NCBI GenBank assembly: GCA_035998445.1
Contig: DASYHQ010000020.1
Location: 1-62,712, forward strand
From: Tepidisphaeraceae bacterium
GTDB lineage: Bacteria; Planctomycetota; Phycisphaerae; Tepidisphaerales; Tepidisphaeraceae
Length of the DNA stretch: 62,712 nt
Direction of reading: 5' to 3'
Each line of letters starts with the position of its first letter. Position 1 is the first letter of the stretch. Positions 6,639 to 56,422 of the stretch are shown one piece after another. The notes beneath the pieces are model-generated. The model saw nothing but the letters and a program-made list of their open reading frames with translations, made no database searches and was not told the DNA's origin. The position numbers and the translations under genes were made by a program.

Positions 6639-7280
6639 AGATCCGAACGCCGCTTGGTGCCTTGTTACACGCGGTTGAAGCCGCGCGGGTAGCCGTGGCC
6701 ATAGAAGCGCTTCGGGCTCACGGCGGAAGGGCTTCGACCGTTGGCTTGCGCTCGTTGACCACACCGGCCGCTCGCATCTTCGCGCGGGCGCCAACGCCGA
6801 TCATTCACAACTCACCTAGATGCGCGCCAGGCAGAGGTCCGATTGTCGCCTACGGGGTTGAGTTCCGGTGATGGCCAGGGTCATCGCGCCGGCGCGCACT
6901 CGCCGGTTCGGGGGTCGTTGCTCCCGATCAAAGCAACGGCATTTAGGTAAGCAGATGGGCGATCACCCGAGACGGATGCAGAGGGGCGCAGGTACGTCCT
7001 CGGGCTAATCAAATAAGGGTTCGGCACGAGCGGAACGCAGTGGAACGGATCCAGTACGGCCGTTAAGATGGCGGTCGCGAGGCCGCCGGCGTGCGTGGCC
7101 GGATCGCCGAGGCATCATCGCGTCCCTCCGCGACCACGGTCTCCGCGCGAAGGTGGTCCGCCTCCTGATCCCGCGGGTCGGGCGACGTTCTGGGGCGTGG
7201 AGCGCGTGTACGCTACGCGCGGGATGGCCTGCTCGGATTTGAGCACCCCTGCCCGCTCAATTCTGAGCACCGTATGCAGC

Positions 7281-19508: not shown

Positions 19509-19880
19509 TCACGGGGCGGTCCGGGCCCATGCCAGGTAAGCGTCGACCAACCGCGCGACGGTCATCTGCTCCGGTGAACGCTTGAGATCACCTGGCGTTC
19601 GCCCCGTCGCCAGCCACTGCAAGACGGTCCGATGATACTTTGTAAAACTGTCGGGCGAGTTAGCCCGCCCGAGGTAGACCATGCGACCGTCGAGGCGAAC
19701 GTACCCCAGTCGCTTCGCTTTGTGGACGCGATAGGCCGGAACGGTCGGGCCGGTGTCCGGTACATCGCCCGGGTGGCGCCGACTTCGAACGCGTACATCC
19801 AGCGTTTGCCACTTGGCCCCGTCAGCATCGTTTCCGTGCGAAACGGGCTCACCGCCCCAAGTCCGACTTTGTTGCAACAT
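19509..19880 (-). pseudogene. Truncated tyrosine recombinase, element A
   Basis: 123 residues matching only the N-terminal arm-binding part of the integrase at 51730-53097: VPAYRVHKAKRLGYVRLDGR, MVYLGRANSPDS and LVDAYLAWAR are shared nearly word for word. The core-binding and catalytic domains (R, H-x-x-R, Y) are absent because the frame stops at 19509 in unrelated sequence. The start ATG at 19880 follows GAGGTGAGCAG. It is the last gene of the RadA operon, 27 bp after the Gam-like gene. Loss of catalysis means A would need another integrase (for example from B) to move. Confidence 0.8.
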
Positions 19881-19907
19881 CTGCTCACCTCGAAAACGCA
19901 GGAACAA

Positions 19908-20537
19908 CTACTTGACGTACAACCGGTCCGCGGGGGAAACGACCGCGACGCCGTCGGGGACTTCACCGTGTTCCGAAAGGTGACGTCCGAGCGCGTCGCG
20001 GGACACCTGCGTGCGGACCCGCGCGTCCTCGGGCCGAGCACGTTGCCAGACCGCCAACGCCCGTGCCGCGTCGCCCTCGGCCTCGACCGTGACGCGGAGG
20101 GCCTCCGGGAGCGACCGCTCGCACCACCTGACGACGGACAGCTCGTCGACCACGTCGATCCGCCCGACCGAGCGGCGAAGGCCGACAGTCCCGGCCGGCA
20201 GGGGCACGGAACGGGCGCGCCCCCCCCGGCGCGCTAATTCCTGCCGGAGCCATCCCTCGAGCTCCGCCCCGAACCGTCGCAACAGCCATTGCTCGTCATG
20301 TTGCGCACGGCGCAGCTCCTGGTCGGCCGAGCCGCGCACCCGCTCCGCGTAAGACCTGCATTCGACGACCTTGCGAACGACCCACGAAGCAGTCCGCTCG
20401 TCGGTCACACGGAAGCCGTTTTCGATTTCGGCGGCGATGCCGCGGTCTTCCTGTGGTGCGTCGGCCATAGTGTCGTCGGGCGACGCAAGGTAGGTCTTAT
20501 TGTGGCGGCAGCTTGAGGTGGCTGTCTCCAATTTCAT
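19908..20537 (-). CDS. Mu Gam-like host-nuclease-inhibitor family protein, copy A
   Basis: 209 residues. An unstructured acidic N-terminus leads to a long helix (TASWVVRKVVECRSYAERVRG...ELRRAQHDEQWLLRRFGAEL). The beta-hairpin signature LPAGTVGLRRSVGRIDVVDE follows, then VRWCERSLPEALRV. This coiled-coil plus GT-x-x-x-R hairpin is the pattern of bacteriophage Mu Gam, which binds linear duplex ends and blocks exonucleases such as RecBCD. The ATG at 20537 overlaps the stop of the preceding gene (ATGA). The paralog in B is 247 residues. The role in the element would be protection of linear DNA ends during replication or integration. Confidence 0.72.
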   Translation of the reverse strand: MKLETATSSCRHNKTYLASPDDTMADAPQEDRGIAAEIENGFRVTDERTASWVVRKVVECRSYAERVRGSADQELRRAQHDEQWLLRRFGAELEGWLRQELARRGGRARSVPLPAGTVGLRRSVGRIDVVDELSVVRWCERSLPEALRVTVEAEGDAARALAVWQRARPEDARVRTQVSRDALGRHLSEHGEVPDGVAVVSPADRLYVK

Positions 20538-21306: not shown

Positions 21307-22632
21307 TCAGCTGGCAATAGAAAGTCGGTCGACGTCGAGGTCGGGCCAAGCCCGCCCTACCGCGGCCCGCAGGGCACTGACGCCGTACAAGTCACAGCCG
21401 CAGTTCCACGGGAGGAACCTGGCGTCGCCAGCCGGCAGCACCATCCGACGGCCGCGCAATTCGTTGGCGCGCATCGCGGCGTTCGCGGCGGAACAGAACG
21501 CGGTGGGGAGCGGCATGAGTTGGCCGGCGAGGTCGAGTTCTCCGACGACGATGAGGTCCGTCGGCAACTCTCTACACAGGCAAGCGCCCGCGATCGCCAA
21601 GGCGAGCGGCAGGTGGAGCAGGTCGGATCCCATCGTCGTAGAACCGGCATGCATGACGGTGGGCCGGCACAGGACCGAAAGGTCCAGATCGCGTAAAACG
21701 TCGTCCCACTCCAATGCAGTTGCTAGGCAACGCGCGGCGTGCCGGACCTCGTCCCGGGCAATGCCGCGGCACACGTTGACGCGCCCCACCTCCGCTGCCG
21801 GCGAATCGGACGGACGTGACGATAGCGTCGCGGCGGCCTGGACCTGGACGATGCCGTGACCCGGAAGCCACGCGTTCACCGACACGATTTGAGTCGCGGC
21901 GTGCCGTGCCCGATGGAGACGCGTCGTGACGGGATCGATCGTTAGCGGGACCCGACGAAGGACGGCGGGTCCGAACCGATTCTTCGGGACGGTCAGCGTC
22001 CGGCGCCCGCCGCGGCGGTCGAGGTGGACGACGACGTCCACGGCGTGTTCGAGCGTGCGCGGCCCCCGGGCGAGGTTTTGCTTGGTGACGTGGCCGACGA
22101 GGATCGTCGCGATGCCCGCCACCTGCAGGGACCTAGCCGCGTCGACCGCCGCCCGGCAGGCGGCCGCGTCGGTCCCCGCGGTCGCCCCGCCGCCCTGAAT
22201 GCTGTCGAGGACGACCAGCTTCACGTCGCGGTGCGGGGCATTCGCGCCGAGGACCAACCGCTGCACGGCGACGGTGAGATGCCGGGGTTCGAGCTCGATC
22301 GCCTCCATCGCGACCCGCTTTAAGGCGCGGTTGGCGTCTGCGTCACTGAAGCCGCCAGCCATGCGTCGAGCGCGCTCGCTTACGCGCTCGACCGACTCCT
22401 CGCTAAGTAGCAAAAGGGATTTGGATCCGCTGAGAGCTTGATCCAACGCCGACTGGAGCGCGAAGCCAGACTTCCGGCTGCCAGGTAGGCCAATGAGAAG
22501 CGAGATTCCCGCGGAATTGGATTGTCTGTACACGTTCGCGGTCGCGTACAGGGTGGGACTAAGCGACCAGCATTGCCTGGGCCCAGAGTCGAACTGGTCG
22601 GATCGGTTGTCACGCAGGAATCTCTTGGCCAT
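21307..22632 (-). CDS. RadA/Sms-like ATPase without zinc finger, copy A
   Basis: 441 residues. The RecA-type core has a Walker A variant GLPGSRKSG (near residue 50), a Walker B region VKLVVLDSIQ, GHVTKQNLARGPRTLEHAVD and the RadA hallmark KNRFGP. The C-terminal 140 residues match the Lon-like domain of RadA (LPLALAIAGACLCRELPTDL then GELDLAGQLMPLP). Known RadA proteins start with a four-cysteine zinc finger; none is present. Chromosomal RadA is a branch-migration helicase loaded on recombination intermediates, so an element-encoded form could drive recombination-dependent replication. It heads the operon iv-v-Gam-integrase. The start codon lies at the predicted transcription start. Confidence 0.85.
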   Translation of the reverse strand: MAKRFLRDNRSDQFDSGPRQCWSLSPTLYATANVYRQSNSAGISLLIGLPGSRKSGFALQSALDQALSGSKSLLLLSEESVERVSERARRMAGGFSDADANRALKRVAMEAIELEPRHLTVAVQRLVLGANAPHRDVKLVVLDSIQGGGATAGTDAAACRAAVDAARSLQVAGIATILVGHVTKQNLARGPRTLEHAVDVVVHLDRRGGRRTLTVPKNRFGPAVLRRVPLTIDPVTTRLHRARHAATQIVSVNAWLPGHGIVQVQAAATLSSRPSDSPAAEVGRVNVCRGIARDEVRHAARCLATALEWDDVLRDLDLSVLCRPTVMHAGSTTMGSDLLHLPLALAIAGACLCRELPTDLIVVGELDLAGQLMPLPTAFCSAANAAMRANELRGRRMVLPAGDARFLPWNCGCDLYGVSALRAAVGRAWPDLDVDRLSIAS

Positions 22633-22638
22633 GCCTAC

Positions 22639-22667
22639 AGTATGAAGAATAAAATCATGATAGTCAA
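22639..22667 (-). promoter_or_regulatory. RadA-operon promoter (A), predicted leaderless
   Basis: On the minus strand: -35 TTGACT (22667-22662), 17-bp spacer, -10 CATACT (22644-22639). Exactly 6 nt separate the -10 from the ATG at 22632. The 13 bases GTCAAGTTTAAAA (plus strand, 22663-22675) recur at 56070-56082 in element B. Confidence 0.7.
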
Positions 22668-22682
22668 GTTTAAAACTATTAC

Positions 22683-22711
22683 TTGATGCAGATGGCCTTC
22701 ACGCCGATATT
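22683..22711 (+). promoter_or_regulatory. RHH gene promoter (A), predicted leaderless
   Basis: TTGATG (22683-22688), 17-bp spacer, GATATT (22706-22711), then exactly 6 nt to the ATG at 22718. No Shine-Dalgarno sequence precedes the gene. Confidence 0.6.
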
Positions 22712-22717
22712 TTAGTT

Positions 22718-23002
22718 ATGGCCCGGACCAAGCAGAGCGTGAACTTTGCCGTACAGCGTCACCTTGCAGACCGATTCCGCGATTCGACCAAGGAGTATTA
22801 CGGGAAACTCGGCCTTTGTTTTTCCGCATGCATGCTGATGTGGTTGGAGGCTGATCCAGCTGTACAGGCCGAGTACCTCAAGCGGGTGTTCGGTGCTGAA
22901 ATTGACGAGGAGATGGCGGCGGTAATCGAGCAGGCCAAAGCCGAACAATTGAGGCGGATCAAGACTCGCGAAGAGTCGCCCAAGTCGAGAAAAGGCTCCT
23001 AG
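22718..23002 (+). CDS. Ribbon-helix-helix-like regulator, copy A
   Basis: 94 residues. The N-terminus KQSVNFAVQRHLADRFRDST has the strand-then-helix pattern of RHH (CopG/Arc) DNA-binding proteins. The central block GKLGLCFSACMLMWLEADP is nearly identical in the B copy although other residues have diverged. A charged C-terminal helix (EEMAAVIEQAKAEQLRRIK) follows. It is divergent from the RadA operon with 85 bp between start codons, the classical position of an operon autoregulator. Targets may be the shared GTCAAGTTTAAAA block or the TGTAC-N-GTACA palindrome after the gene; this is inference. Confidence 0.72.
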   Translation: MARTKQSVNFAVQRHLADRFRDSTKEYYGKLGLCFSACMLMWLEADPAVQAEYLKRVFGAEIDEEMAAVIEQAKAEQLRRIKTREESPKSRKGS

Positions 23003-27633: not shown

Positions 27634-27887
27634 GCCGCGCGCCGCGCGTCGGGTTCGGCGGGGGAATCTCAGCGTCAATCGTACGTACCCCCCCCATCCA
27701 CCATGGGCCGTGATCGATGCACCGTGGGCCGAGCGCGGCCCCACGCGGCACCTGGGATCGCACGCTCGACCGCGTCTTGACGGGGCGTCCGCCGCCCCGT
27801 TCCGGTCCACCGCCTGCCGGCGACGGCGGCGTTCAAGCAATCGGCCGACCGCACCGTCCGGCGGTTGCGCGCCGGCGGACGGCCCCG

Positions 27888-51553: not shown

Positions 51554-51733
51554 TTAGGCGACCGATAGGAGGTCGCGGGTGGCTTCGGTGTTCATGAACT
51601 GCGCGATCGCGTGGCCGCGGATCTGCGATGACCTGCTGTCGGAGTGGCCGAGCCGGCGAGCGGCTTCCGCGGCGGACGTGCCTTCCAGGTAGATCATCAC
51701 CGACCTATGGCGCCGGCGGTTGCCGCCCATCAT
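51554..51733 (-). CDS. 59-residue ORF coupled to the integrase
   Basis: Starts MMGGNRRRHRSVMIYLEGTS and contains AAEAARRLGHSDSRSSQIRG. Its ATG (51733) overlaps the integrase stop (51730-51732), implying coupled translation. The AARRLGHSD string looks like a helix-turn-helix or the region before the catalytic tyrosine of XerC/D-like enzymes. A small DNA-binding excision factor is possible. There is no counterpart left in element A. Confidence 0.5.
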   Translation of the reverse strand: MMGGNRRRHRSVMIYLEGTSAAEAARRLGHSDSRSSQIRGHAIAQFMNTEATRDLLSVA

Positions 51734-53097
51734 CCAAGTTCGGCCGCGATGGCCCGCGCCGTAGCCACGTCCGCCTCGGCGTAGTCCAGCGTCTGGTCGA
51801 CCGTCCGGTGGCCCAGCAGGACCCGCGCCGCCTCCAGCCCCTTTTCCCGGCGGATCGCCGTCGCGTGTAGGTGCCGCAGTTGGTGCGGGTGCCAGTACTG
51901 CGCGACGGCGAGCGTGCCCGCCACAGTTGCTGCTCGCATCGCGTAACGCAGCGCCCGATGATAGCTCCGCGAGTTATAGCGACCGCTGCCCGCTGGCGAC
52001 CCGGCCCGACGGGTTGGGCAGGTCTTCGGATGCCCGCACTCGCCATCGCTCGCAGACTTGTCGCTCAGCCGCCGCTCGGCCATCGCTTGTGCTGGTGAGA
52101 ACACCCACGCCTGCGGGTCGTGGGGCCGCAGGAACGGGCCGAGGACAGCCCGGCCCCGCGGGCCGATACACACGACGCGGCGTTGCCCGCGGTACGCCGT
52201 CTTGTGCGTCGCAGGGGCGTAAAGCCACACCGCCGCCGCAGCTCCGCCGCCGCGATCGACGTCGGCCGTTCGCAGGGCGCACAACTCGCCCGACCGCATC
52301 CCGGTCAGCCGCTGCAGCCGGACCATCGCCCGCAGCGTCGGCGGCAGGTACGGCAGGACCGCCTCGACGTGTGCGTCGGGGACCGGCCTCACCGGCGCCG
52401 TCTCCCGCGCGCCCGAGCGGCCGCGCCGCAGCGGCTCGACCGCCGCCAGGGCCGTCAGCACGCTCGGCGCGACGAGCTGCTCCGACACCGCCCAGCGGAA
52501 AGCCCGCTTAACGCAGGCGACCCGCTGGTTCACGACGTTGCGGCACAGGTCGTCGGCAACCAGCGCAGCACGCACCGCGCGTAGGGCAAGCGGGCCGAAC
52601 GCCGCCGCCGCCGTCTGCCCGTATAGCGCGCACAGCGCCTTCGCACCGGCCTCCAGCGGTCCCAGCCCCGCGCTCGCCCGCCCCGTCGCCGCGTCGACGT
52701 AGTACGTGCGGGCCCACCGCAGGTACGCCGCCGCAAGCGACGCCACCGTGAACACATCCCCTGCGGCAGAAGCCCGTGATGACTGGGGCAGTTGGCCGGT
52801 GGCGAGCCACTCGCCGAGCGTGCAGCGATATCGCTCGTGGCTCACGGGCGAGTTGGCTCGCCCGAGATAGACCATGCGCCCCGCCAGCCGCACGTACCCG
52901 AGGTTCTTCGCCCGGTGCACGCGGTAGGCCGGGACAGATGCCGAGGTGGCACGTGCTCGAACGCGCCCCTCTGCCGATCGGCGGACCGGTATCGCATCGT
53001 CGTTTCGGAACGCCCGGTGGGTCGCGGGAGTACCGCTCGCCACATCGGAACCCGGGGGGACGGCGGACGGCAAAGGTGGGTGCGGCTGGGCGAACAT
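51730..53097 (-). CDS. Tyrosine recombinase (integrase), element B
   Basis: 455 residues. The ATG at 53097 is preceded by GGAGGACGAGACG. The N-terminal arm-binding part (YRVHRAKNLGYVRLAGRMVY) is shared with the fragment in A. It is followed by a SAM-like core-binding domain (FGPLALRAVRAALVADDLCR). The catalytic domain has R in LTGMRSGELCALR (near 266), K in the beta-hairpin (THKTAY), HQLRHLHAT (H-x-x-R, near 404), LLGHRTV (second H, near 430) and Tyr in TLDYAE (near 439). All catalytic residues are present. The last 200 residues include an unusual insert with CGHPKTC. It is the terminal gene of the RadA operon and presumably integrates element B. Confidence 0.93.
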   Translation of the reverse strand: MFAQPHPPLPSAVPPGSDVASGTPATHRAFRNDDAIPVRRSAEGRVRARATSASVPAYRVHRAKNLGYVRLAGRMVYLGRANSPVSHERYRCTLGEWLATGQLPQSSRASAAGDVFTVASLAAAYLRWARTYYVDAATGRASAGLGPLEAGAKALCALYGQTAAAAFGPLALRAVRAALVADDLCRNVVNQRVACVKRAFRWAVSEQLVAPSVLTALAAVEPLRRGRSGARETAPVRPVPDAHVEAVLPYLPPTLRAMVRLQRLTGMRSGELCALRTADVDRGGGAAAAVWLYAPATHKTAYRGQRRVVCIGPRGRAVLGPFLRPHDPQAWVFSPAQAMAERRLSDKSASDGECGHPKTCPTRRAGSPAGSGRYNSRSYHRALRYAMRAATVAGTLAVAQYWHPHQLRHLHATAIRREKGLEAARVLLGHRTVDQTLDYAEADVATARAIAAELG

Positions 53098-53137: not shown

Positions 53138-53881
53138 TTATTTCACGTACAGGCGGTCCTCGGCGACCGTCAGCGTCGCGCCGTCGGGCAGGTCCCCGGT
53201 CTCGGCAACGTACCGCTGGAACGGCTGACGCATCAGGCGCGTCGTCAATCGCGCATCGTCACGGAATCGGCGGTGCCAACGGGCGAGCTCCCCCGCCGCC
53301 ACTCCCTCGGCCTCGACGGTCACGCGAAGCGCGTCGCGCAGGTGTCGCTCGCACCACGCCCGCGCCGCTGGCTCGTCGACGACGTCGAGCGTCGGCGGGC
53401 GTCGCCGCAGGCCGACCGTGCCAGCCGGCAGTGCCACGGACCGGGCCCCGCCGCCGCCCCGCCGCCGCAGCTCGTCGCGCAGCCAGGCCTCTAGCTGCGG
53501 GCCGAACTGTCCCATCAGCCACCGCTCGTCCCGCTCGGCACGACGCAGCTCACGGTGTGCCCACGCCTCAACGCGCTGCGCGTGGGCGCGGGCCTCGACG
53601 ATGCGGCGGACGACCCAGGAGGCCGTCGCCTCGTCGCAGACGCAGAATCCGTCGGCGAACTGCGTTGTCACGCCGAGCTCGTCCTCGTCGCTACCCCCGC
53701 CGCTGCCGTCATCCTCCGCAGCAGTACTGCGGTCTCGGCCACCCCCCTGCCGCTCTGCTGGTGGTGCCTTCCACCGGTCGGCCACGGCCCCCGTCCCTTG
53801 GAGGTGACCAATGGCCGAGGCGTCGTCGTCCGCTTCGACGACGTGGCTTTCACCGCGATGTTGGCTACTTTTCTTCATCAT
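53138..53881 (-). CDS. Mu Gam-like host-nuclease-inhibitor family protein, copy B
   Basis: 247 residues. The start is the ATG at 53881 (MMKKSS), which overlaps the stop of gene v by 4 nt. The longer open frame upstream belongs to other genes. An acidic Ser/Gly-rich N-terminus of about 70 residues leads to the conserved coiled coil (ATASWVVRRIVEARAHAQRV, ELRRAERDERWLMGQFGPQL) and the Gam-type hairpin LPAGTVGLRRRPPTLDVVDE. A final domain (FQRYVAETGDLPDGATLTV) matches copy A. The order and overlaps are the same in both elements. It is likely to bind linear duplex ends and block host exonucleases. Confidence 0.72.
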   Translation of the reverse strand: MMKKSSQHRGESHVVEADDDASAIGHLQGTGAVADRWKAPPAERQGGGRDRSTAAEDDGSGGGSDEDELGVTTQFADGFCVCDEATASWVVRRIVEARAHAQRVEAWAHRELRRAERDERWLMGQFGPQLEAWLRDELRRRGGGGARSVALPAGTVGLRRRPPTLDVVDEPAARAWCERHLRDALRVTVEAEGVAAGELARWHRRFRDDARLTTRLMRQPFQRYVAETGDLPDGATLTVAEDRLYVK

Positions 53882-54696: not shown

Positions 54697-56040
54697 CTAC
54701 GTGCCGATCAGCAGTGCTATCCCGGCCGCGTCGAGGTCGGGCCACACCCACGCCACCGCGTCGGCGACGGTTTCGACGCCGCTCAGCTCGCAGCCGCAGT
54801 TCCACGGCAGGAACCGCCGATCGTCCGCCGGCACTAGCAGCCGCATGGCGGCCAGCTCACCCGCCCGCATCGCCGCCGTCGCCGCGGTGATCGCCGCGCC
54901 TGGCAACGACCGCACGCGCCCCGCGAGGTCGACCTCACCGATCGCGACCAGGTCGCTCGGCACCGTGCGGCACAGGGTCGCCGCGGCGATCGACAGGCAC
55001 AGCGGCACGTGCAAGAGGCTCGCGTATCCGCCTGAAGACGATCGAGCGCCAAGCAACGGATCGTCGCGATCGCTCAAGGGCCTGCACGCGATCGACAAAT
55101 CCAGCTCGCCGGCGACCGCCGCCATGCCCGGGAGGCTGCCGAGGCAGTGCAGCGCGTACTGCACCTCGGCGCGGGCAATCCCACGGCAGGCGAGCAGGCG
55201 GCCGGCGGCACGCCCCGACGGCGGGGCGAGCGCCGCGGCAGTTTGGACCTCGACGCCGCCGACGTGCGGCAGCCACGCGCGGGCAGTGGCCACGTGGCGT
55301 CCCGCAGCCCCGCCGGCGGGCCGCGCCGGCATCAGGCGCGTCGTCGCCGGGTCGATCGCCAGCGGGACCGGTTGGAGGACGGCCGGGCCGAAGCGGTTCT
55401 TGCTGACGGTGAGCGTGCGCCGCCCGCCGCGGCGGTTCAGGTGCAGGACGACGTCGACCGCGTGCTCGAGCGTCCGCGGGCCGCGGATCGCGTTCTGCTT
55501 CGTCACGTGGCCGACCAGGAGCGTGGCGATGCCGGCGGACTGAAGAAGCCGCGCGGCGTCCAAGGCCGCCCGGCAGGCCCGCGCGTCGGACCCGCCCGCG
55601 CCGGTCGTGCCCTGGATGCTGTCAAGCACGACAAACTTGACTCCAGCGTGCGCGGCATCGGTGGCGACCACGTGCCGCGCGACGTACGTCGGCAGGTGGG
55701 CCGGATCATTAGGCGTCGCGAGCAGTGCGAGGTTTTTGAGGCAGCGTGCCACGTCCACCTTCGTACGGCCCGTCATCATGCGCTCGGCACGCGCGCGGAC
55801 GCGAGAAACGTGCTCTTCGCTCAGCAGGATTAGGGACTTTTCATCGCGAGCCGCAAGGTCCAAGGCGGTTTGCAGGGCCAGGCCGGTCTTGCGGCTGCCG
55901 GGTGGTCCGACGAGTAGTGAGATGCCAACGCATCTCCCAGACGAATGGTGAGGCCACGCCAATGGAAACTGAGCATTAATTCCGACGCTTAGCGTCGAAT
56001 CGGAGCGGGCTGGAAAAGTCGAAATCGAATGAGCAACCAT
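54697..56040 (-). CDS. RadA/Sms-like ATPase without zinc finger, copy B
   Basis: 447 residues. Walker A variant GPPGSRKTG, Walker B VKFVVLDSIQG, GHVTKQNAIRGPRTLEHAVD, the hallmark KNRFGP, and a RadA/Lon-like C-terminal domain (VPLCLSIAAATLCRTVPSDL, GEVDLAGRVRSLPG). No N-terminal zinc finger is present, as in A. The serine-arginine in place of the usual glycine-rich loop residues (GSRK) is shared between copies and may mark this subfamily. It heads the operon ending in the integrase, with the start codon at the predicted transcription start. Confidence 0.85.
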   Translation of the reverse strand: MVAHSISTFPARSDSTLSVGINAQFPLAWPHHSSGRCVGISLLVGPPGSRKTGLALQTALDLAARDEKSLILLSEEHVSRVRARAERMMTGRTKVDVARCLKNLALLATPNDPAHLPTYVARHVVATDAAHAGVKFVVLDSIQGTTGAGGSDARACRAALDAARLLQSAGIATLLVGHVTKQNAIRGPRTLEHAVDVVLHLNRRGGRRTLTVSKNRFGPAVLQPVPLAIDPATTRLMPARPAGGAAGRHVATARAWLPHVGGVEVQTAAALAPPSGRAAGRLLACRGIARAEVQYALHCLGSLPGMAAVAGELDLSIACRPLSDRDDPLLGARSSSGGYASLLHVPLCLSIAAATLCRTVPSDLVAIGEVDLAGRVRSLPGAAITAATAAMRAGELAAMRLLVPADDRRFLPWNCGCELSGVETVADAVAWVWPDLDAAGIALLIGT

Positions 56041-56046
56041 ACGCCC

Positions 56047-56074
56047 ATAATAATATCCTTTACGACAATGTCAA
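56047..56074 (-). promoter_or_regulatory. RadA-operon promoter (B), predicted leaderless
   Basis: Minus strand: -35 TTGACA (56074-56069, consensus), 16-bp spacer, -10 TATTAT (56052-56047), then exactly 6 nt to the ATG at 56040. The block GTCAAGTTTAAAA (plus strand, 56070-56082) is shared with A. Confidence 0.75.
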
Positions 56075-56102
56075 GTTTAAAAATTAACTATAGCGATAAA
56101 GC

Positions 56103-56131
56103 TTGCTCGCTGGTTGTATTGATCGTCTAAT
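56103..56131 (+). promoter_or_regulatory. RHH gene promoter (B), predicted leaderless
   Basis: TTGCTC (56103-56108), 17-bp spacer, TCTAAT (56126-56131), exactly 6 nt to the GTG at 56138. No ribosome-binding site. Confidence 0.65.
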
Positions 56132-56137
56132 CTTGTT

Positions 56138-56422
56138 GTGCCGAGACGCAAGCAGACCATCAGTTTTTCTATTGATCCGTTGCTGGCCGATCGCTTTCGA
56201 GAAGCGACAACCGCTTATTTTGGGAAACTCGGCCTTTGTTTTTCAGCATGCATGTTGATGTGGCTAGAAGCAGATCCTGAAACGCAGGCCAAGTACCTCA
56301 AACGTGTGTTCGGTGCCGAGGTCGACGAGGAGTTGCTGGAGCTAATCGAACAGGCGAAGGCAGAACAACTGAAGCGAATCAAATCTCGGGAAGATGTCTC
56401 CAAGCCCAAGCGCGGCTCTTAA
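56138..56422 (+). CDS. Ribbon-helix-helix-like regulator, copy B
   Basis: 94 residues from GTG 56138, the same length as copy A. QTISFSIDPLLADRFREATT is a typical RHH strand and first helix, and GKLGLCFSACMLMWLEADPE is almost unchanged from A. The C-terminus (ELLELIEQAKAEQLKRIKS) is charged and helical. It is divergent from the RadA operon with 97 bp between starts, and likely represses both promoters. Confidence 0.73.
   Translation: MPRRKQTISFSIDPLLADRFREATTAYFGKLGLCFSACMLMWLEADPETQAKYLKRVFGAEVDEELLELIEQAKAEQLKRIKSREDVSKPKRGS

Follow-up and report, generated by a model that had tools for sequence, protein, structure and literature searches.

Adjacent -10 hexamers in divergent RHH/RadA-like cassettes predict leaderless mRNAs in a Tepidisphaeraceae bacterium

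The window, a stretch of 62,712 nucleotides of a Tepidisphaeraceae bacterium (contig DASYHQ010000020.1), carries two elements, in each of which a gene for an RHH-type small protein diverges from a gene for a RadA/Sms-like ATPase (Table 1). The RadA-like gene is followed in its operon by two small ORFs and by genes for a Mu Gam-like protein and a tyrosine integrase. The intergenic region between the RHH and RadA-like genes is 85-97 bp long and AT-rich, in a host genome of 64% GC; it spans 22633-22717 in element 1 (85 bp) and 56041-56137 in element 2 (97 bp). A third copy of the cassette was found on host contig C8 (G000 C8 13490-17909; L012). There, too, the RHH gene diverges from a RadA-like gene, accompanied by an ORF of ~130 aa, an ORF of ~88-99 aa, a Mu Gam-like gene and a tyrosine integrase gene, and the RHH protein is 94% identical to that of element 2.

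Several further features of the elements were observed. Of the integrase, element 1 retains no more than the initial ~130 residues (window 19509-19907), and this copy therefore looks degraded and unable to move by itself. An imperfect palindrome of ~31 bp, GACCCCCTTCGGGGGAAGACGGTGGTCGCGC, is dispersed over the window at 7128(-), 23147(+), 28246(-), 33756(-), 43291(-) and 56554(+), and over C8 at 2310(-) and 18039(+). Its plus-strand copies lie ~130-145 bp beyond each RHH gene, with inverted copies ~13-16 kb leftward, and the palindromes are possible recombination sites bounding the elements. In several genomes of the class, the Mu Gam-like protein (window 53138-53881 and 19908-20537; L173, L175 and L176) occurs together with a RadA-like ATPase or an RHH gene, and Gam and the RadA-like ATPase may form a conserved module for handling DNA ends.

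Table 1. Features of the two cassettes in the window. Promoter elements and operators are assigned from sequence resemblance.
Feature	Position	Strand	Remarks
RadA/Sms-like ATPase gene, element 1	21307..22632	(-)	441 aa; ATG at 22632; heads leftward operon
-10-like hexamer CATACT, RadA-like, element 1	22639..22644	(-)	ends 6 nt before ATG 22632
-35-like hexamer TTGACT, RadA-like, element 1	22662..22667	(-)	spacer 17
Candidate RHH operator, element 1	22663..22686	.	conserved GTCAAGTTTAAAAC; function inferred
-35-like hexamer TTGATG (4/6), RHH, element 1	22683..22688	(+)	spacer 17
-10-like hexamer GATATT (4/6), RHH, element 1	22706..22711	(+)	ends 6 nt before ATG 22718
RHH-type small protein gene, element 1	22718..23002	(+)	94 aa
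Mu Gam-like gene, element 1, operon-internal	19908..20537	(-)	SD aaGGAGatccaaATG
RadA/Sms-like ATPase gene, element 2	54697..56040	(-)	447 aa; ATG at 56040; heads leftward operon
-10-like hexamer TATTAT, RadA-like, element 2	56047..56052	(-)	ends 6 nt before ATG 56040
-35 hexamer TTGACA (6/6), RadA-like, element 2	56069..56074	(-)	spacer 16
Candidate RHH operator, element 2	56070..56082	.	conserved GTCAAGTTTAAAA block overlapping RadA-like -35; function inferred
-35-like hexamer TTGCTC (3/6), RHH, element 2	56103..56108	(+)	spacer 17; identical in C8 copy
-10-like hexamer TCTAAT, RHH, element 2	56126..56131	(+)	6 nt before GTG 56138; identical in C8; gap shared with G022
RHH-type small protein gene, element 2	56138..56422	(+)	94 aa; GTG start
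Mu Gam-like gene, element 2, operon-internal	53138..53881	(-)	SD caGGAGatccagATG
Tyrosine integrase gene, element 2, operon-internal	51730..53097	(-)	SD cccGGAGGacgagacgATG

Compared with NCBIfam TIGR00416, the RadA-like proteins scored 70 and 90 bits, for a cut-off of 403, and matched only in the ATPase core; the match to RadA in the PDB extended over about 90 residues. Judged by these matches, the cassette ATPase is RadA-like, not RadA. For the RHH protein, family searches returned no match at all, including none to a Pfam RHH family. Its predicted helices (residues 14-27 and 31-44) follow an extended N-terminus, and five of 12 Foldseek matches were RHH proteins, with no E-value below 1 and with TMt 0.79 and rmsd 1.5 against CopG. 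This helix pattern and the matches to CopG, KacA, AtaR, NikA and CdbA, weak but in agreement, are indications of an RHH fold. An alignment scan of IMG/VR with the RHH protein found no relative, the corresponding RadA scan found two distant relatives, and a PADLOC search gave no match.

The upstream regions of the four divergent genes were read directly from the sequence. The RadA-like and RHH promoters have the layouts TTGACT-17-CATACT-6-ATG and TTGATG-17-GATATT-6-ATG in element 1, and TTGACA-16-TATTAT-6-ATG and TTGCTC-17-TCTAAT-6-GTG in element 2. An earlier note on this DNA had stated that a -10-like hexamer ends exactly 6 nt before each of the four starts (22632, 22718, 56040 and 56138), with a -35-like hexamer at a distance of 16-17 bp, and direct reading bore out both statements. 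Scoring agreed on the position of the -10: when its end was scanned from 0 to 29 nt upstream, the top joint -35/-10 score fell at gap 6 for all four starts. The RadA-like promoters matched sigma-70-type hexamers at 9/12 (element 1) and 11/12 (element 2) positions, their -10s having the A and the T expected at positions 2 and 6, and a promoter scanner found both unaided. The RHH promoters have sigma-70-type spacing and score 8/12, the -10 of element 2 being without A at position 2; they fell below the threshold of the scanner. A joint score of at least 8/12 at one fixed gap was reached by ~3 of 1158 host genes. Taken singly, the hexamers are unremarkable (4-5/6 matches, P 0.6-10%; element 1 hexamers, weak with 4/6, 9-10% by local shuffling; element 2 hexamers, 1.7% each), so the case draws its weight from where they lie, from their recurrence and from the host context.

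No usable Shine-Dalgarno (SD) sequence was found within reach of the four window starts, in agreement with the earlier note; an AAGGA ~15 nt upstream of the RadA-like start in element 2 is too distant and is not conserved. The start codons of all four genes are well determined. None has a common start codon in frame upstream. In element 2 and C8, the RHH start is preceded by an in-frame stop at a distance of 18 nt, and the conserved RHH N-terminus starts at the GTG codon of these two copies.

The C8 promoters read TTGCTC-17-TCTAAT-6-GTG for the RHH gene and TTGACA-16-TATTAT-7-ATG for the RadA-like gene. The -10-to-start gaps of the six cassette promoters are thus 6, 6, 6, 6, 6 and 7, the last belonging to the C8 RadA-like gene. 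The start of this gene is ambiguous, because an in-frame ATG lying 9 nt upstream has a perfect TATAAT of its own at gap 6. On comparing element 2 with C8, all 24 promoter-hexamer bases were identical, compared with 48 of the 74 other intergenic bases (Fisher P = 1.7e-4), and third positions of the RHH gene differed at 43 of 94 codons. As the hexamers had been defined in the earlier note without the C8 copy, this comparison is out of sample. The earlier note had concluded that the layout is under selection since it is repeated in two diverged copies. That argument is insufficient, because related copies can share sequence by descent; the hexamers kept in C8 amid a diverged remainder do speak for selection. 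Between elements 1 and 2, the letters of the hexamers differ, but their positions are kept. RadA homologues in five other genomes were considered as a test of the layout and set aside: at least the one in G003 sits directly behind a Gam-like gene, and such homologues do not test promoter layout.

The two kinds of genes in the cassette differ in their SD sequences. An SD precedes the Gam-like gene in all three cassette copies (GGAGatcca.ATG) and the integrase gene in two of them, element 2 and C8; the SD sequences of the first small ORF of the operon are weaker. Operon-internal genes thus carry an SD, whereas the two promoter-proximal genes do not. Within the cassette, a leaderless state is suggested only for these two regulated, promoter-proximal genes.

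We then considered the host genome, of which 1.94 of 5.84 Mb, sampled by regions, was scanned with genes from a simple codon-based caller. The hexamer TANNNT ended at gaps 5, 6, 7, 8, 9 and 10 in 4, 38, 30, 19, 20 and 17 of 1181 genes, respectively, over a background of 6.9 per gap; the excess at gap 6 has a Poisson P of about 2e-16. Such a sharp left edge at gap 6 is a prediction of leaderless transcription. In the 87 genes with gaps of 6-8, -35-like hexamers stood at spacers of 16, 17 and 18 in 7, 11 and 6 cases, compared with ~1 at other spacers, and TTG starts numbered 0 of 87, compared with 56 of 1071. No TANNNT peak was present at 27,875 internal in-frame start codons of the host, and the signal was almost missing in genes that follow a co-directional neighbour at a distance below 30 nt. 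The gap-6 peak recurred in two other genomes of the class (G004, 7 vs 1.0, 6.8x; G388, 11 vs 1.7, 6.6x) and was absent from a control of 200 kb of E. coli K-12 (0 vs 2.3 expected).

The excess over gaps 6-10 amounts to 7.7% of host genes; as the count took in strict TANNNT hexamers alone, this figure is a lower bound. SD sequences are otherwise commonly used in the host, and the 16S 3' end retains the anti-SD CACCTCCTT. Two approaches were dropped. Genes with an adjacent -10 appeared depleted of SD sequences (6% vs 35%), but the control hexamers ATNNNT and TTNNNT gave 0%: an adjacent -10 takes the place of an SD, so that most of the depletion is mechanical. Free EM motif models settled on SD or compositional motifs instead of the -10 and were replaced by direct positional counts. 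The best reading of these counts is that leaderless expression from an adjacent -10 would be a regular minority mode of the host, used by at least about 8% of its genes. The earlier note had read the four cassette genes as producing leaderless mRNAs; a gap-6 signal that runs through the host and two further genomes of the class, and not E. coli, supports this reading and suggests that the note understated it.

A palindromic sequence lies over the -35 region in the cassettes. In element 1, the inverted repeat TCAAGT (22664-22669) / ACTTGA (22681-22686) covers the RadA-like -35 and touches the RHH -35. The conserved GTCAAGTTTAAAA block, which lies over the RadA-like -35, extends to this repeat in element 1 and to an 11-bp inverted repeat (91% complementary) in C8, and is a plausible candidate operator for the RHH protein.

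We consider it likely that the intergenic region is a two-way promoter from which divergent mRNAs with leaders of 0-2 nt are produced on both the RHH and the RadA-like sides. This reading starts from four observations: the sequence layout, its retention in the C8 copy, the gap-6 signal across the host and the SD sequences carried by the internal genes. From these we infer that RNA polymerase with the housekeeping sigma factor would read one -35/-10 pair per strand. With a -10 ending 6 nt short of the start codon (7 nt in one of six promoters), transcription should begin at, or 1-2 bases from, the first base of that codon, and 70S ribosomes would initiate on the resulting leaderless mRNAs without an SD. 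The cassette would thereby use the leaderless mode of its host for the two promoter-proximal genes and ordinary SD sequences for those behind the RadA-like gene. The RHH protein probably binds the candidate operator GTCAAGTTTAAAA(C), which covers the -35 region, and would repress both genes.

The RHH half of this proposal is less secure than the RadA-like half, because the RHH -10s depart from the -10 grammar of the host. The hexamers TCTAAT (element 2, C8 and G022) and TGTAAT (G388) are without A at -11, hexamers with this mismatch showed no enrichment upstream of host genes, and the mismatch classes of the element 1 hexamers were not enriched in the host either. One of the RHH homologues of G388, on C9, is without a -10 next to its start. 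It is conceivable, though unlikely, that only the RadA-like side is leaderless from a sigma-70-type promoter, while the conserved T(C/G)TAAT motif beside the RHH start codon serves mainly as an operator half-site or as the promoter of a different sigma factor, with RHH transcription beginning elsewhere. The departure at -11 fits this explanation, as do RHH -35s in the window that match at just 3-4 of six positions. TCTAAT also recurs near RHH starts as the binding site of a regulator might, at gap 6 in three places (element 2, C8 and the homologue of G022, another genome of the class, TCTAAT-6-ATG) and, in the RHH paralogue L122 (G000:C52 near 50553), 8 nt before the ATG. An operator, however, needs no fixed gap, and of seven RHH homologues five show the exact 6-nt gap, element 1 among them with its different hexamer GATATT. 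The other homologue in G388, itself another genome of the class, has a good -35 at 18 bp (TTGACG-18-TGTAAT-6-ATG), and farther upstream in the three cassette copies no better promoter was found. Possibly the RHH promoter is a weak one by design, depends on another factor, or contains a motif that serves as operator. A broader proposal, which we regard as doubtful, is that leaderless initiation with a fixed 6-nt gap is a mode of expression throughout the class and that the RHH family keeps this gap with its own non-standard -10, T(C/G)TAAT without the A at -11; in a mobile element, one regulator or alternative sigma factor would then link an autorepressor and a recombination operon that are both leaderless.

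It is very improbable that the genes have ordinary leaders from promoters within neighbouring coding regions and that the adjacent hexamers are chance matches. The intergenic region is indeed AT-rich for this genome and single hexamer matches of this quality are unremarkable, but recurrence at a specific position, conservation in the third copy and a host-wide signal at gap 6 speak against this, and there is no conserved SD that such a leader could present. Least probable is a layout shared by descent alone without selection, since, although the three cassette copies are clearly homologous, the hexamers of element 2 and C8 are unchanged while their other intergenic bases and third codon positions diverged, and those of element 1 changed letters in place.

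The preferred reading, leaderless divergent mRNAs beside an RHH repressor, can be compared with known systems. Autoregulated operons of RHH repressors exist, as for CopG and the KacA/AtaR-type antitoxins. The cassette resembles them in having a small RHH-like protein, with a predicted fold similar to CopG, KacA, AtaR and CdbA, beside a promoter with a palindromic sequence over the -35. Unlike in those operons, its RHH gene diverges from a RadA-like/Gam/integrase operon and not from a toxin gene, and its operator is a candidate one.

Leaderless mRNAs from adjacent -10 hexamers are well known elsewhere, and the present case is a clear one at the level of a class, with no new mechanism. In this little-studied bacterial class, there is clear sequence evidence that leaderless mRNAs, made from conventional -35/-10 promoters, are a regular mode of expression for a minority of genes; a phylum-level prediction follows, and start-codon annotation there would improve. 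Leaderless genes were surveyed across bacteria by Zheng et al. 2011 (PMC3160421), who did not name Planctomycetes among the groups in which they detected such genes. From a single planctomycete genome, Nakagawa et al. 2017 (PMC5397173) inferred for Planctomycetes a bias described as 'leaderless mRNA and/or RPS1'. In the host, PF07596 was matched 36 times, with no match in 14 control genomes, and 16S probes matched closely but not exactly; by themselves these two results make Planctomycetota likely, whereas PF07583, taken as a planctomycete marker, was absent.

Leaderless expression of this kind is established in Deinococcus-Thermus (PMC12340547) and in Actinobacteria including Mycobacterium (PMC3898074), and toxin-antitoxin transcripts of M. 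tuberculosis are predominantly leaderless (PMC8485053). As in Deinococcus-Thermus (PMC12340547, PMC3160421), a TANNNT -10 stands directly before the ORF without an SD, the leaderless transcripts known there being predicted here. Unlike Deinococcus-Thermus, the host shows a -35 peak at 16-18 bp and uses SD sequences as the commoner mode, and its detectable leaderless genes, a figure from sequence alone, make up about 8%, compared with around 40% predicted in Deinococcus-Thermus. With Mycobacterium and other Actinobacteria (PMC3898074, PMC3160421) the host shares the adjacent TANNNT -10, ATG or GTG starts and a mixture with SD-led genes, although it belongs to a different lineage, the Planctomycetota.
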